A DNA stretch of 64,000 bases from a virus: IMG/VR virus record IMGVR_UViG_3300033571_009404, positions 1 to 64,000 of that record, one strand, 5' to 3'. Numbering within the stretch: position 1 is the first letter of the stretch; the number at the start of each line of letters is the position of its first letter. This document shows positions 1,888 to 26,846 of the stretch, piece after piece. The translations under genes were made by a program, and so were the position numbers. The notes below the pieces were generated by a model. The model worked only from the letters and a program-made list of their open reading frames with translations. It made no database searches and was not told the origin of the DNA.

Positions 1888-2697
1888 ATGGAACTTACTT
1901 TTTTCACCAAGACCCTCGACGGTATTGTCAAAAGCTTGGAGCGGTCCGGTGAAACCGGTGTTGGTTACCGCAATGGTTATTTGTTGATCCAGAAGGTCGA
2001 ACTCTACAGTGCGACTTCCCGTATGGTTCATCAAGATTTCCTGAGCATCGTTTATCAGGAAATCGACAACAGCTACGATGAGCGTTTCGATGGTCAGGTC
2101 AGACATCGTTACTTCAATCGTCGGTATTACAAGACGGATTACATCAGCATGATCCAATTACTGGATGCGTTCGATCGCCGTCAGCAGGATGGATCTGATG
2201 AACTCGATGATAGCTTCGGTATGACGTACCGTCAGGCCATGGAGTACATGTGTGAAAAGAACTTGCGTGACTTCATCAGAATCTACACACCGCAAGTACG
2301 CATCGAACATCTGATCAAGCGTGTCAATGACACACTCAGTAAGAGAAATTCTAACTGTCTGATGTTCGACTTGGAACAGGCGATGGCTATACTTGGTTGT
2401 CAGTTGAGACCAGGTTATTACGTAACCAAACAACAAGCTGACGAACTGGTCAATATGTTCTCTATCGAGGTGATTGAAGCATATGACCTGGCTCGCACAA
2501 TCAACGTTCGTCGTTCTATGACGATTGATAAGTACTGTGAGCGATTCAATCAGCCATTGAGCGATGTTATTAATGCCATCAGTGCTGATCCGACCTTTGC
2601 AGGTAAGGTTGTGGAACCTTCCACGAAGCTTACACCATCCGTCATCGAGAGCCTGTTGTACATGCATTTCGATGACGTTGTTGTTAATCGTAAATAA
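1888..2697 (+). CDS. Hypothetical protein
   Basis: A 269-residue protein with no recognised domain. It starts after AAAAGGATT, 12 bp beyond the previous stop. It is predicted soluble, with many Asp/Arg/Tyr residues and short amphipathic segments. The shadow frame on the other strand has no start signal or codon bias and is discounted. Confidence 0.8.
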   Translation: MELTFFTKTLDGIVKSLERSGETGVGYRNGYLLIQKVELYSATSRMVHQDFLSIVYQEIDNSYDERFDGQVRHRYFNRRYYKTDYISMIQLLDAFDRRQQDGSDELDDSFGMTYRQAMEYMCEKNLRDFIRIYTPQVRIEHLIKRVNDTLSKRNSNCLMFDLEQAMAILGCQLRPGYYVTKQQADELVNMFSIEVIEAYDLARTINVRRSMTIDKYCERFNQPLSDVINAISADPTFAGKVVEPSTKLTPSVIESLLYMHFDDVVVNRK

Positions 2698-2709
2698 GGA
2701 GTAGTAAAT

Positions 2710-2907
2710 ATGGAACAAAAGATGTTCGAACGTCAGTTGAAGGAAGCAAAGGAATCACTGACGCAAGCACAAAACATCGTGGACGCATTGATGAACGAAC
2801 CCGATCAAGCCGATTTGTCACAACGTGTTGTATCGGCTGCTCGTATCGCTTCTCAGGCAGCTGCGGATCTTAACATGCTGGGCGGCGCACTGCGCTATAA
2901 CAAGTAA
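2710..2907 (+). CDS. Small helical hypothetical protein
   Basis: This 65-residue protein is almost entirely helix-forming (Gln, Ala, Glu, Lys) with a probable short coiled coil over residues 1-55 and no Cys or Trp. AAGGAG precedes its ATG. It sits between two larger unknown genes with 12-bp gaps, in an evident operon. Confidence 0.75.
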   Translation: MEQKMFERQLKEAKESLTQAQNIVDALMNEPDQADLSQRVVSAARIASQAAADLNMLGGALRYNK

Positions 2908-2919
2908 GGAGCAGTAATT

Positions 2920-3660
2920 ATGCAACTCATGATGTCTCTGCCTGTCCAGGCTGTTATCAATTCTTTCGTTGCTTTCGAGAAAGCCATCGAAGATCTCGAT
3001 CAACCCTTCGCCGTAGAAGTTCACCACTTCGAATGGCATCAAGGTCAGTTCGGTCTCATCGCTACCATCACTGGTGATGATGGCAAGAGTGGCAAGAGTG
3101 GTCTCGATAAGACTTCGGTTACGATCCACTTCTTCTACCCGAACAACAAGATCGTGGTGGAAGTTCTCGAACGCTACACCAATAATCCGGTTACGAAGTT
3201 CAGCCGGGCATTCGATGCATCTGACTTCAAGGAAGCGGTCAAGCATGCGGTGGATTCGCTTGTGGCTGAGCATATCGCCAGCATGCAAGCCAAACCAACG
3301 GTCAAGCCTTTGGTCTATGCCCCGGACACAGCCTTCTTCCTCAAGCTGTTGTCCGTGGCGCACACGAGCCTGTTCAACAACACCAAGTACCCGGTGGAAG
3401 TGAACATCGGCTCCGAGGACTTCAATCCTTACATGAAGTTCGAGATTCGTGAAGGCGACTACGACAAGGTCTTCGTCAAGTACGAGATCGATGGTCATCG
3501 TATCGAATTCGGTGTGGAAGAAGGTGGCGAGGAATGCTTCGGCGCCTTGATCGATGACGTCGTGTTCCATGAAACTCAGGTCGATGAGATCATGGCACAC
3601 GTGCTGAAGTTGCTCGACATCCTCTACACCAGCCAAGAAGCTGGCAAGTGGGACCGTTAA
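2920..3660 (+). CDS. Hypothetical protein
   Basis: A 246-residue unknown soluble protein. Its codons (CTC, GTG, AAG, ATC) are more GC-biased than those of its small neighbours, hinting at good expression. It is acidic and beta-rich, without an obvious catalytic signature. AAGGAGC precedes the start. Confidence 0.8.
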   Translation: MQLMMSLPVQAVINSFVAFEKAIEDLDQPFAVEVHHFEWHQGQFGLIATITGDDGKSGKSGLDKTSVTIHFFYPNNKIVVEVLERYTNNPVTKFSRAFDASDFKEAVKHAVDSLVAEHIASMQAKPTVKPLVYAPDTAFFLKLLSVAHTSLFNNTKYPVEVNIGSEDFNPYMKFEIREGDYDKVFVKYEIDGHRIEFGVEEGGEECFGALIDDVVFHETQVDEIMAHVLKLLDILYTSQEAGKWDR

Positions 3661-7109: not shown

Positions 7110-8843
7110 ATGTTTTCTCATCCATTTTATTTCTTCTGGCAAAACAAGTCTCCGTTTTCCAATTGGTATATCCGGAACTTCAAAGTCAGAGAAATGATCT
7201 TCAATTGCGTTGAGCAATACATGATGTACCAGAAGGCTGTGTTCTTTGGTGATTTGGAAACTGCTAAGCTTATCATGGCAGAATCCAAACCAAAGAAGCA
7301 GAAAGAACTGGGACGTCAGGTCAAAGGCTTCAATCGCATTGATTGGGATTCTGTAGTTGAGGATATCCTCTACACGGCTATCAAGGCCAAGTTCACCCAG
7401 CATCGTGATCTGGGTGAATTGATGCTAAGCATCACTGCGAAAGAATTCGTCGAAGCATCTCCGTATGACCGGATCTATGGTGTGCGATTGTCAATGAATG
7501 ACCCTCGCATCCAGTCAAAGAAATTATGGCTCGGCCTAAACAAGCTTGGGCGTGTGCTGACCCGAGTACGTAACTGGCTGTATGTCAAGAAGAAAGGAAA
7601 GAACATGATCGATCTGTCCCCGCATCATCCAGAAGTCATTATTCTGGATTTGACAGATGTGTTTGCCGATGCACAACGGCGGCTGGCACATACGGGTGAT
7701 GTGAATCTGCTGTTGCCCTCGATGGTCAGTAGCATCATGACGTGTGTGGAATGTCGTGATCCCGATATGACCCGGTTGGAAGTCTATGTCTCTGACTTGA
7801 TCGAACAGTTCAAGAATGATGGCATGCCAACTGAGGATGGTGAAATTGCCGCAGCTATCGCTAAAGACATCGGACGTAAGCTTGTCTATGAGATCGAGAA
7901 GATCGGCGGTTACGATGAGAACGATAATTTCGATTACGATGTCTATCGTGTGGAAATCTCCGGAGCTGTGGTACTGACTCGTCTGGATCCTGTGGGCGCT
8001 CGTGCTCAAGAGAAGAGGAAAGAATGGTTTCCTGATCCGGAAGCTGTTGGTAAATCGATTTCTTCAGGTAGCAGGGTTGACCATATGGTCATGGTCGATG
8101 ACGACGGCAATCCAATCAAGACGTCTGTAGTGGATATCCCTGAACCCACTCAAGAACAGAAGGATCATATTGCTTCTTTCGAAGTTAAACTTCCTTCGCT
8201 TGAAGAAATGGAGAATCATCCGCATCAAGGATACTTCCAAGGCCAACACAATGTGCAATATGCTGCTAAGTTAGGAGAAGTAGTCACTCCTGAACAGCAG
8301 CTGCAGAACTACGAAGCACATGAGCGTCGTGTGGTTATCGAGGAGAATGTCCCGGCTGCTGGTTTCCGTAGTCGTACGGAGTACGATCTCCCCAGTGAAG
8401 ACTTTACTTCATCGACTGTTGAGTCCAATATCAGCAACAAAATCGATAAGATGCTTCATAGCCCTAAGTTCAATATGAAGTTTGCTCCTTGCGATGATCT
8501 GGGAGAAATCTCTGTCAGATTGAACGGTCAAACCATTCAGAATCCAACACCTGAACAATTGTCCGAAGTTGCCAATAAGTTGGGTTTCGATGCAGCTGAC
8601 GTCATCATGGGACAAGACAAAGGTTATCGTGAGGTTCCCTTGTCTGAAGTCAAAGAGTCTCCTTATAAAGAGATTCTCGACAATGCGTTCCAGGATCAGG
8701 AAAGGGTTATCATCAATGCAGCTCCACGCTACGTACCCCTTGGTATCGTAGACGGCGATCAACAACAACAGAAGTGGAAAGACACTACAACAGGGGAAGT
8801 GCTTACCAACGAAGAACGATTTAATCGAGTTTCAAAAGACTAA
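7110..8843 (+). CDS. NADAR-family (YbiA-like) protein with long C-terminal extension
   Basis: Residues about 1-157 match the NADAR/YbiA family: SPFSNW (14-19), VEQYMMYQKA (34-43, Glu35 at the usual catalytic place), LGR (67-69), DW (78-79), KF (94-95), EASPYDRIYGVRL (115-127) and LG..L..VR at the end. NADAR enzymes act on N-glycosidic bonds of ADP-ribose or riboflavin intermediates, and some remove ADP-ribose from guanine. Family members are usually about 150-200 residues; this one has 577. Residues 160-577 are unrecognised: an acidic domain (about 165-300) and a polar, partly disordered tail. ADP-ribose processing in defence evasion is an inference. Confidence 0.8.
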   Translation: MFSHPFYFFWQNKSPFSNWYIRNFKVREMIFNCVEQYMMYQKAVFFGDLETAKLIMAESKPKKQKELGRQVKGFNRIDWDSVVEDILYTAIKAKFTQHRDLGELMLSITAKEFVEASPYDRIYGVRLSMNDPRIQSKKLWLGLNKLGRVLTRVRNWLYVKKKGKNMIDLSPHHPEVIILDLTDVFADAQRRLAHTGDVNLLLPSMVSSIMTCVECRDPDMTRLEVYVSDLIEQFKNDGMPTEDGEIAAAIAKDIGRKLVYEIEKIGGYDENDNFDYDVYRVEISGAVVLTRLDPVGARAQEKRKEWFPDPEAVGKSISSGSRVDHMVMVDDDGNPIKTSVVDIPEPTQEQKDHIASFEVKLPSLEEMENHPHQGYFQGQHNVQYAAKLGEVVTPEQQLQNYEAHERRVVIEENVPAAGFRSRTEYDLPSEDFTSSTVESNISNKIDKMLHSPKFNMKFAPCDDLGEISVRLNGQTIQNPTPEQLSEVANKLGFDAADVIMGQDKGYREVPLSEVKESPYKEILDNAFQDQERVIINAAPRYVPLGIVDGDQQQQKWKDTTTGEVLTNEERFNRVSKD

Positions 8844-13319: not shown

Positions 13320-14183
13320 ATGCTGAAAGTTCAAGTCGATTACCACGATGATGCTTTGTTCGACAGCACAGACTTCGAGCCGAAGATCATTACTTTCCCT
13401 GGCGGGGAATGTCATGTGACTCTACCGGATGAATTGCTGGACAATCCACGTGCCCGTGCGTTTACCATTAAGACGCTGATCAAGAACGCCGACCACATCA
13501 TGCATTTGCTGATGGTTACAGACGCGATTCGTCGCCACTACGCGGGCTATCCGATTTTCCTACACATGCCGTACATTCCGTACGCACGTCAAGACCGCGT
13601 AGCCAACCACGGCGAGTCTTTGTCGGCTCGTGTGTTCTGTGATCTGATCAATGCTCAGAACTACGAAGTCGTCAGCGTCGCTGATCCGCACAGCCCGGTG
13701 GTGGAAGCGCTGCTGAACCGCATCGACGTGGTCGATCCGATTTACATGGTCGAAGAAGTGCTGCAAAGCGATCTCTTCAAGGACGGTGTGGCGCTGGTTG
13801 CACCGGACGCAGGTGCCCGAAAGCGTGTGCTGAATATGGCCATGGAAGTCAACGTCGAAGACGTGATCTTTGCTGACAAGGTACGCGATACCAAGACTGG
13901 CAAGATCACCGGTACCGTGGTCAACAACGAAGTTCCTCAAGGTAAAGCTATTCTGGTCGTGGATGACATCTGTGACGGTGGTCGTACCTTCCTGGAACTG
14001 GGTAAGGTCTTAAAGGAGAAGACCGACCAACCGCTGTACCTGTACATTACCCATGGCATCTTCAGCAAAGGTCTGGAAGAACTCGGTAAGTATTACGACC
14101 GTATCTTCACTGCCTACAACTGGAATGATGAAGAAGCCAACAATCCCCAACTGACCTTGATCAAGGAAGGAAATCTGCTGTGA
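13320..14183 (+). CDS. prs: Ribose-phosphate pyrophosphokinase-like enzyme (PRPP or ADPR-PP synthetase)
   Basis: Family members transfer pyrophosphate from ATP to the C1 hydroxyl of ribose 5-phosphate; phage NARP1 relatives use ADP-ribose instead. Seen here in 287 residues: FPGGE (26-30), PYARQDR (87-93), DPHSP (122-126, the catalytic-His region), APDAGARKR (161-169) and the PRPP-type loop VVDDICDGGRT (213-223). Cellular Prs is about 310-315 residues, so this is slightly short. Its stop overlaps the NAMPT-like gene by 4 bp (ATGA), tying the two in one pathway. Substrate choice cannot be read from sequence. Confidence 0.88.
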   Translation: MLKVQVDYHDDALFDSTDFEPKIITFPGGECHVTLPDELLDNPRARAFTIKTLIKNADHIMHLLMVTDAIRRHYAGYPIFLHMPYIPYARQDRVANHGESLSARVFCDLINAQNYEVVSVADPHSPVVEALLNRIDVVDPIYMVEEVLQSDLFKDGVALVAPDAGARKRVLNMAMEVNVEDVIFADKVRDTKTGKITGTVVNNEVPQGKAILVVDDICDGGRTFLELGKVLKEKTDQPLYLYITHGIFSKGLEELGKYYDRIFTAYNWNDEEANNPQLTLIKEGNLL

Positions 14184-15883
14184 GCGAACAACAAGAAAAC
14201 ATCGTCGAGAAAGTTGCCAATGGTCTCGTGCCATTCAACCTGGCAGACTTCTACAAGACTGGTCACCCAGCCATGTATCCTCAGGGTACTGAAACCCTGG
14301 TGGCCAACTTTACCCCGCGCTCGGCCAAGTACGCTCCGGTACTGCCGGAATTGTTCGATAACAAGATCGTTTGGTTCGGCCTGCGTGGTTTCATCCAGGA
14401 ATGGCTGATCGATGTCTTCAATCGCGAGTTCTTCCAAAAACCCAAGGAAGAAGCCATCAAGAAGTACCGTCGTCGTATGGACACTTCTCTCGGTCCTGGT
14501 GCTGTCAGCATGAAGAAGCTGGAACTGCTCCATGATCTGGGTTACCTTCCGCTGGAAATTCGCGCCCTACCTGAAGGCGCTCGTGTGAACATCAAGGTAC
14601 CGCCGGTACTGTTCATCAACACCGCTGGCCCTGAACTGTCGTGGGTGGCTACCTACTTCGAAACTCTGATGTCCTGCGAAAGCTGGAAAATCTCGACGGT
14701 CGGTACCATTGCTTTCGAGTTCCACAAGCTGCTGACCTACTTCGCTGTGTCCACTGGCGCGCCTCTGGACTTTGTGCGTTGGCAAGGTCACGACTTCTCG
14801 TTCCGTGGCATGTCGGGTGTGCATGATGCAATGCGTACCTGCTCGGCTCACTTGCTGTCGTTCATGGGTACCGATACCATCCCGTCTATCGACTACCTGG
14901 AAGACTACTACGACGCCGATTCCGACAAGGAACTGGTGGGTGGTTCGATCCCAGCATCGGAACACAGTGTGATGGCTCTGCGCATTCTGCTGAAGCTGAA
15001 GGAACTGGCCAAGCTGCCGGAGAACGCAGGTCTGACTCACAAGCAACTACGTAAGGCAGCTGAGCTGGAAGTGGTGCGTGACTATGCCATCAAGGAATAC
15101 GACACTGGTCTGGTCTCCATGGTCTCGGATACCTTCGACTTCTGGAATGTGATCACTCACATCGCCAAGGTCCTGAAGCCTGAAATCATGCAACGCAAGC
15201 CGGATGTGTTCGGTAATGCCAAGGTCGTCTTCCGTCCTGATTCGGGTGATCCAGTGTACATCCTGACCGGTTACAAGAACAGTGAAATCGTTGCTAATGG
15301 CGATGGTACTTTCACTGTCAATGCAACTGGCAGAGTCATCCAAGATCACGAGCGTCGTGGTGCTGTGGAATGCCTGTGGGATATCTTCGGTGGTACCGAA
15401 ACCAGTCTCGGCTACAAGCTGCTGGATTCCCACGTCGGTCTGATCTACGGTGACTCGATCACTCTGCCGCGTGCTATGCGTATCCTGCGTCGTCTGCAAG
15501 ACAAGGGCTTCGCATCCACCAACGTAGTCTTCGGTATCGGTTCGTACACTTACAACATGCTCTCCCGTGACGTCTTCGGTTGGGCCATGAAGGCGGTGTA
15601 CGCGGTAGTCGATGGTGAGCCGGTTGAGATCTACAAGGATCCAGCAACTGACGACGGTATGAAGAAGTCGGCCAAGGGTCTGCTGCGTGTGGATAAGGTA
15701 GGTAACAACTACTTCCTGACGGAGAACTGCACCCCGGAAGAGTTCGAAGGCGGTGAACTCAAGCCGGTGTTCCGTAATGGTGAGATGTTGGTCAAGCCTA
15801 CCTTTAAGGAAGCCAAGGAACGTCTGCACCTTTCTTGGACGTGTCCGGAACCTAATAGCATCGTCTGGCAAGACGCTGCTTAA
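14180..15883 (+). CDS. nadV: Nicotinamide phosphoribosyltransferase-like enzyme (NAMPT/NadV or Namat)
   Basis: Joins nicotinamide to PRPP giving NMN or, in NARP1 systems, to ADPR-pyrophosphate giving NAD+ directly. Conserved blocks: FRGMSG (208-213), SAHLLSFMGTDT (222-233), GSIPASEHS (255-263, His262 matching human His247), SDTFD (316-320), FRPDSGDP (351-358) and YGDSITL (423-429). At 567 residues it exceeds the common 460-495; extra length lies partly in an insert of about 23 residues after His262 and in the C-terminus. The start is GTG, overlapping the upstream synthetase. A hairpin terminator follows. Family assignment is firm; substrate is open. Confidence 0.92.
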   Translation: MSEQQENIVEKVANGLVPFNLADFYKTGHPAMYPQGTETLVANFTPRSAKYAPVLPELFDNKIVWFGLRGFIQEWLIDVFNREFFQKPKEEAIKKYRRRMDTSLGPGAVSMKKLELLHDLGYLPLEIRALPEGARVNIKVPPVLFINTAGPELSWVATYFETLMSCESWKISTVGTIAFEFHKLLTYFAVSTGAPLDFVRWQGHDFSFRGMSGVHDAMRTCSAHLLSFMGTDTIPSIDYLEDYYDADSDKELVGGSIPASEHSVMALRILLKLKELAKLPENAGLTHKQLRKAAELEVVRDYAIKEYDTGLVSMVSDTFDFWNVITHIAKVLKPEIMQRKPDVFGNAKVVFRPDSGDPVYILTGYKNSEIVANGDGTFTVNATGRVIQDHERRGAVECLWDIFGGTETSLGYKLLDSHVGLIYGDSITLPRAMRILRRLQDKGFASTNVVFGIGSYTYNMLSRDVFGWAMKAVYAVVDGEPVEIYKDPATDDGMKKSAKGLLRVDKVGNNYFLTENCTPEEFEGGELKPVFRNGEMLVKPTFKEAKERLHLSWTCPEPNSIVWQDAA

Positions 15884-15896
15884 TTAGGGCATAAGG

Positions 15897-15925
15897 ACCG
15901 GTGTGGGTAACTCCACACCGGTTTT
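15897..15925 (+). terminator. Rho-independent terminator after NAD genes
   Basis: Perfect 10-bp stem (ACCGGTGTGG / CCACACCGGT), 6-nt loop, then TTT. GGGCATAA lies just upstream. It closes the 13320-15883 pair, supporting a discrete two-gene module. Confidence 0.8.
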
Positions 15926-15943: not shown

Positions 15944-16543
15944 ATGGAAAACAATCTTATCGTATTAGACGGTGATGGTGTATTGGTCGACTACCATCAC
16001 GCCTATGCTCAGGCATGGGGTAAAGCATTCGGTGAAGTACCTGCAATCAAAGATCCCGATGCTTACTGGGCATTGGATCGTTACGATGTTCGTAAGCTTC
16101 ATGGTGATGAACTGGATCACTTCAAGAAGCATATGGACTATGAATTCTGGGCTACCATGCCCGCCATGCCTGGTGCTGTAGAGGCATGTCAAAAACTGGT
16201 AGATGCAGGTTACAAATTGATCTGTGTAACCGCATTGGAAGATGAACACAAATCTGCGCGCTGGAAGAATCTGTTAGATCTGGGTATGCCTCTGGAAGGT
16301 ATAGTTTGTACAGGACATGGGAATGATACGGCCAGTCCCAAGGCATCAGTCTTAAGTGTCTTGAATCCGGTGGCATTCGCAGATGACTTCGTGCACTATA
16401 TGCGCGGCATTCCACCACACATCCATGCAGCTTTGATCATGCGTTCTAAGAACGGTACACCGAACGTCGGTCCTGATCTTAAGTTAGCTCATTCTCAACA
16501 TGCTGATATTCTTAGCTTTGCGGAATATTGGGTCAATCGTTAA
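15944..16543 (+). CDS. HAD-superfamily hydrolase
   Basis: 199 residues. Motif I is VLDGDGVLVDY (nucleophile Asp9 and general acid Asp11), followed by a helical cap segment; a Thr motif is plausible at ICVTA and the acidic motif is AFADDF. HAD proteins are mainly phosphatases of small phosphorylated molecules; here a nucleotide or NAD-related phosphate is possible because of the neighbours, but that is inference. Flanked by terminators on both sides, so transcribed as a single gene. Confidence 0.8.
   Translation: MENNLIVLDGDGVLVDYHHAYAQAWGKAFGEVPAIKDPDAYWALDRYDVRKLHGDELDHFKKHMDYEFWATMPAMPGAVEACQKLVDAGYKLICVTALEDEHKSARWKNLLDLGMPLEGIVCTGHGNDTASPKASVLSVLNPVAFADDFVHYMRGIPPHIHAALIMRSKNGTPNVGPDLKLAHSQHADILSFAEYWVNR

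Positions 16544-24363: not shown

Positions 24364-26846
<2,483 letters not shown>

Follow-up and report, generated by a model that had tools for sequence, protein, structure and literature searches.

A probable NARP1-type NAD+ reconstitution module of Betaproteobacterial kinship in a 310-kb virus genome

A gene pair that general models label ribose-phosphate diphosphokinase and nicotinamide/nicotinate phosphoribosyltransferase raises the question of whether its products make NMN from PRPP or rebuild NAD+ directly from ADP-ribose. The pair lies in a 64,000-nucleotide window, the first part (bases 1-64000) of a virus record of 310,114 bp (G000). The ends of the record share an exact 87-bp direct repeat (bases 1-87 and 310028-310114), because of which it looks complete, and it is probably a circularly closed assembly; comparison of bases 20000-44000 with known phages gave no long DNA match. 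NARP1 has been described before as a counter-defence, and such genes are frequent in jumbo phages. Comparative sequence analysis makes it likely that the two genes form a NARP1-type module for NAD+ reconstitution that converts ADP-ribose and nicotinamide to NAD+, and what appears to be new here is a lineage-specific variant of the adenine clamp, with Met in place of Tyr, and a mostly bacterial kinship.

The first gene (13320..14183, + strand) starts with ATG and encodes a 287-aa putative ADP-ribose pyrophosphokinase (Adps) of the PRPP-synthetase fold, an assignment drawn from the open reading frame, profiles, tree, signature columns and model. The second (14180..15883, + strand) starts with GTG and encodes a 567-aa putative nicotinamide ADP-ribose transferase (Namat) of the NAMPT fold, assigned from the reading frame, profiles, trees and model. 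Both reading frames are as first predicted, including their 4-bp overlap, in which the upstream stop codon and the GTG start share the letters GTGA; a Shine-Dalgarno-like AAGGAAGG is located upstream of this start. The pair was also predicted to end in its own terminator, and a terminator-like hairpin does follow it (about 15894-15925, + strand), with a folding energy of -21.9 kcal/mol and z = -4.7 for the surrounding 52 nt relative to shuffles, although its short T run (UUUUC) is a point against a terminator. Directly beyond it is a HAD-fold protein with an NT5C-like 5'-nucleotidase match (15944-16543). The G+C content of the pair (0.52-0.54) is higher than the mean for reading frames in the window (0.47, sd 0.036) but codon usage is within the ordinary range, so recent transfer of the pair is not demonstrated.

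The 287-aa protein matches TIGR01251 (ribose-phosphate diphosphokinase; 9e-36) and PHROG 619 (1e-86) in profile searches, and its AlphaFold model (pLDDT 92.7) has PRPP synthetases as its best PDB matches. The ATP-binding and catalytic residues of Prs are retained (E. coli E39, R96, D98, H131, D170, K194, R196, D220, D221 and T228), and the protein carries PDAGA, an Adps-family signature. At four positions that are constant in eight Prs proteins it is substituted, as are the majority of Adps-family members: G173 becomes Ala, T225 Gly, L229 Phe and A246 Leu. Two of these, Thr225 and Leu229, fall in the sugar-phosphate loop (codons 215-224; 13962..13991, + strand), which on alignment with the Prs and Adps families reads DDICDGGRTF as compared with DDMIDTGGTL in Prs, and the replacements are those of the Adps family. 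We know of no solved Adps structure, and from these substitutions we infer that the loop accommodates ADP-ribose. In a tree with housekeeping Prs as outgroup the protein falls on the Adps side of a split with support of 100, in one 113-row clade with SPbetaL1 Adps (support 95). The phylogenetic check proposed with the original prediction thus places the first gene with the verified SPbetaL1 enzyme and apart from ordinary Prs.

The same check places the second gene with verified SPbetaL1 Namat and apart from NadV and NAMPT. The outgroup comprised NadV of KVP40, phi-Grn1, KP27 and Aeromonas 31 together with mammalian NAMPT, and all Namat-like proteins lie on one side of it (100/100), including SPbetaL1 and a Felixounavirus copy. 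The latter is the VpaE1 pair, used as a stand-in for Bas63, which we take to be a member of the same Felixounavirus group. The 567-aa protein, the sole NAPRTase-family gene product of the 310,114-bp record, matches NF006629 (3e-150), PHROG 448 (6e-172) and Pfam NAPRTase (2e-35). Its top PDB match is SPbetaL1 Namat (9w5x) both by sequence (E 4e-124) and, with a model of pLDDT 93.8, by fold (E 1e-54, 41% identity), ranking above Haemophilus ducreyi NadV and mammalian NAMPT. The Namat catalytic core is retained in full (SPbetaL1 D13, Y15, F189, S190, R192, D215, A242, R306, D308, G360, D361, R399 and D400), with Asp215 and Arg306 corresponding to D232 and R352 in the window protein. His262 (14963..14965, + strand) aligns with the NAMPT catalytic His and is invariant in 42 relatives. 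The original prediction had drawn attention to a short synthetase, a long transferase and an insert after His262. All are present, the insert spanning about residues 268-299 by alignment and model (14981..15076, + strand) and being modelled as confident helices. Betaproteobacterial relatives and other jumbo phages have this insert too, or a longer one, and phage Namats are commonly long (538-613 aa); these features are not diagnostic and we give them no evidential weight.

Discrimination between ADPR-pyrophosphate (ADPR-PP) and PRPP is reported to involve an adenine clamp that is missing from PRPP-using Nampt (PMC12774641). In Namat the adenine of ADPR-PP is held by the loop residue R40, or by a Lys/Tyr followed by a stacking residue, and by a helix with the motif GSX-Phi-X-Phi-X-Phi-TRD, in which aromatics at positions 3 and 7 stack on the adenine (PMC12774641). 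The predicted models are single chains and the clamp, which is built by the dimer, is invisible in them; its two elements were located by mapping to SPbetaL1. The loop position of R40 corresponds to K50-Y51 (14327..14332, + strand), which is the published alternative form of Lys followed by an aromatic (PMC12774641). The helix corresponds to codons 454-464 (GSYTYNMLSRD; 15539..15571, + strand), with Tyr456, Met460 and Ser462 at the positions of SPbetaL1 F392, Y396 and T398. Position 3 fits the motif, and Met at position 7 and Ser at position 9 deviate from it; among other Adps-paired members, C, H and L are likewise found at position 7. Because single clamp mutations in SPbetaL1 Namat lower activity merely 1.3- to 1.7-fold (PMC12774641), Met460 alone need not abolish use of ADPR-PP. 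The equivalent helix is GGGLLQQLDRD in KVP40 NadV and GGALLQKLTRD in mammalian NAMPT, and alignment of this helix shows that the NadV motif GG(A/G)LLQ is absent from the window protein.

The H. ducreyi NadV (HdNadV; PDB 9ke8) is instructive in this respect. It lies within the Namat clade as the sister of SPbetaL1 Namat (L097), with which it is 58% identical, but it uses PRPP and makes NMN (PMC6095924), and its helix (GAQTYQRNTRD) has lost the clamp aromatics, whereas the window protein keeps Tyr456 and Tyr51. Comparison of HdNadV with SPbetaL1 Namat shows a natural reversal of substrate preference, and that such a flip is possible inside the Namat clade. Clade membership is therefore not enough to settle the substrate, and weight falls on the clamp residues, most of which the window protein retains.

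The principal alternative, which we regard as improbable, is that a Prs paralogue, encoded by the first gene, supplies PRPP and a NadV, encoded by the second, makes NMN, which the host then adenylylates to NAD+. It accords with the folds of both enzymes and with the general models, which call Prs and NAPRTase, and it gains from the in vitro behaviour of verified Namat, which makes NMN from PRPP roughly half as fast as human Nampt does (PMC12774641), such that host PRPP and NadD/NadR could serve. In E. coli, NMN is likewise the product of NAMPTs from Haemophilus and Chitinophaga (PMC6095924, PMC11681623), and a relative of the pair in Acinetobacter adjoins an NMNAT/Nudix gene, consistent, in that organism at least, with an NMN route. 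Against it, both proteins separate from Prs and NadV with support of 100, the Thr of the Prs loop is replaced in the first, and in the second most of the clamp is kept and the NadV motif is missing. The phage also lacks an NMN adenylyltransferase (NMNAT): this had been noted for the window and holds across the entire 310,114-bp record, in which domain searches found neither PF01467 nor a Nudix domain, although the same searches were positive in 14/14 control genomes. Finally, a canonical NadV and an Adps-Namat pair coexist in Paraburkholderia. The genome of P. sediminicola (L114) encodes the NadV L392 (GGALLQQINRD; 42% identity to KVP40 NadV) in addition to an NrtR-Adps-Namat operon, and the presence of both in one genome suggests separate roles for the two. 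Direct formation of NAD+, which the original prediction favoured, is thus supported by the trees, the largely Namat-like clamp and the absence of PF01467, from which activity on ADP-ribose is predicted.

As a NARP1-type module, the pair would act in two steps. The 287-aa enzyme would move pyrophosphate from ATP onto ADP-ribose to give ADPR-PP, and the 567-aa enzyme, presumably as a NAMPT-fold dimer, would join ADPR-PP and nicotinamide to form NAD+ directly, for which an NMN adenylyltransferase is not needed. The most likely benefit would be survival of NAD+ depletion by host defences, since both substrates are products of the NADase defences (TIR, SIR2 and SEFIR). The phage encodes an NAD+-dependent DNA ligase (24373-26406; PHROG 3869, 1e-180) that is closest to those of Serratia jumbo phages such as Moabite (44%); it too would need the rebuilt cofactor, and loss of NAD+ would be expected to hit replication.

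A 577-aa reading frame 4.5 kb upstream of the pair (7110-8843) has an N-terminal NADAR domain (PF08719; residues 8-157, 1.9e-42) and could release ADP-ribose. Its approximately 415 further residues have no family match, and matches in phages are confined to the NADAR part. We considered a special link between NADAR and NARP1 but rejected it, as NADAR is present in 12/50 NARP1 contigs and in 7/24 control contigs; the controls were fetched by thymidylate synthase, and the seven that are NADAR-positive are all of the controls that exceed 200 kb, only one of them having a NAPRTase-family gene. It is accordingly very unlikely that the pair makes NAD+ from ADPR mainly for housekeeping, recycling the phage's own ADPR (as from NADAR) or feeding the DNA ligase: the phage does have both proteins, and the chromosomal, NrtR-linked setting of the bacterial relatives (24/25 loci, L111-L135) suggests homeostasis, but NADAR is not enriched with NARP1, and NAD+-dependent ligases, which more than a thousand phage records contain, are not in themselves a reason to have it.

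The kinship of the pair is largely bacterial. The best true match to the 567-aa protein among annotated phages has 46-47% identity. The top match under a phage name, 'Acinetobacter phage MD-2021a' (L002, CAKLQF020000015.1; 50%), looks like bacterial chromosome, with ABC transporter, AraC regulator and EmrB genes as neighbours, and was rejected as a phage relative; it carries Prs-like, NAMPT-like and NMNAT/Nudix genes consecutively, with a Namat-like clamp (GSFTYNYLTRD). The best matches in bacterial genomes reach 63-70% (Chromobacterium, Duganella, Paraburkholderia, Trinickia, Undibacterium and Novimethylophilus). In the Namat tree the window protein belongs to a 22-row clade (100/100) whose remaining members are 17 bacteria of this kind and four further viral contigs (L302, L303, L304 and L336) that do not form a single group. 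The Adps tree agrees, placing the window in a 10-row Betaproteobacterial group (95) within a 25-row group (99), and the pair thus moves as a unit. From the trees, the lineage of the window pair appears to be mainly that of Betaproteobacterial chromosomes and not of known phages, and the pair evidently shares ancestry with their chromosomal operons; the Betaproteobacterial genomes tested also have a separate housekeeping Prs. Among the viral members, the jumbo phage L303 (323 kb) shares the helix motif (57% and 47% identity) but has no synteny to the window, and the Namat loci of L304 and L336 look to adjoin a large terminase gene. We were unable to demonstrate that the pair occupies the same insertion site in a related jumbo phage, as the gene order of the window is almost entirely lacking in G062 and G076, recurrence in G076 being limited to the pair itself. 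A search baited with the RNA ligase was negative.

The bacterial and phage loci differ in their association with NrtR, a repressor composed of a Nudix domain and a winged helix (PF21906) that is released by ADP-ribose (PMC12735969). NrtR is within 4 kb of the pair in 24/25 loci (L111-L135) and in 70/80 bacterial loci, and in 0 of the phage loci examined. It is a reasonable inference that bacterial NARP1 is induced by its own substrate and that the phage copies have been freed from NrtR control. The question has been raised as to whether NARP1 was first bacterial and was then co-opted by phages (PMC12774641). We suggest, tentatively, that the window pair is a captured Betaproteobacterial host repair operon, held by NrtR until ADP-ribose builds up, that has moved between chromosome and phage more than once; the phage copies may have shed the repressor so as to rebuild NAD+ from the start of infection, and the Met-based clamp may have its own donor range. 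The Betaproteobacterial lineage brings repressor-linked bacterial operons and repressor-less phage copies together in one well-supported clade, such that one set of enzymes would serve to test which way the transfer went, whether ADP-ribose regulates the pair and what a natural clamp variant does.

Comparison with characterized systems reveals several points of likeness and difference. SPbetaL1 NARP1 (Adps and Namat; PDB 9w5w/9w5x) has the same gene order, gene overlap, catalytic core and general clamp architecture, and its Namat is 41-42% identical to that of the window, but the latter has two inserts (about 28 and 18 aa), Met460/Ser462 in place of Tyr/Thr, and Lys-Tyr in place of Arg in the clamp loop. 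The Adps loop also differs, being DDLSSFGGTF in SPbetaL1, and the window sequence is like that of the Felixounavirus. The NrtR-Adps-Namat operons of Chromobacterium, Duganella, Paraburkholderia, Undibacterium and Novimethylophilus are alike in clade (Namat 100/100, about 65-70% identity), inserts, gene order and a near-identical clamp, and differ in having a nearby ADP-ribose-sensing NrtR, whereas NrtR and Nudix domains of any kind are absent from the window phage. The chromosomal pair of Paenibacillus foliorum, for which ADPR-dependent NAD+ synthesis is verified (PMC12774641), is close to SPbetaL1 (72% Namat identity, PMC12774641) and not to the window lineage. NARP2, the KVP40-type NadV with NMNAT-Nudix, shares the NAMPT fold and phage-encoded NAD+ synthesis but has GG(A/G)LLQ, a PRPP donor and a requirement for NMNAT, and both motif and NMNAT are absent from the window phage. 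HdNadV is alike in lying within the Namat clade, and unlike in its lost clamp aromatics and its synthesis of NMN from PRPP.

Other loci show variations in the genes associated with the pair. In the viral contig L336 a GIY-YIG homing endonuclease-like reading frame (2060-2986) is located between Adps and Namat, the same place in which the Felixounavirus has an HNH endonuclease. A PF15891 nucleoside 2-deoxyribosyltransferase-like protein is encoded within 4 kb of a Namat-like gene in nine phage loci (L027, L040, L041, L052, L055, L062, L067, L091 and L096) and nine bacterial loci. Rheinheimera phage Barba19A (L104) has an annotated macro-domain gene (2675-3178) directly upstream of Adps-Namat, a possible supplier of ADP-ribose.
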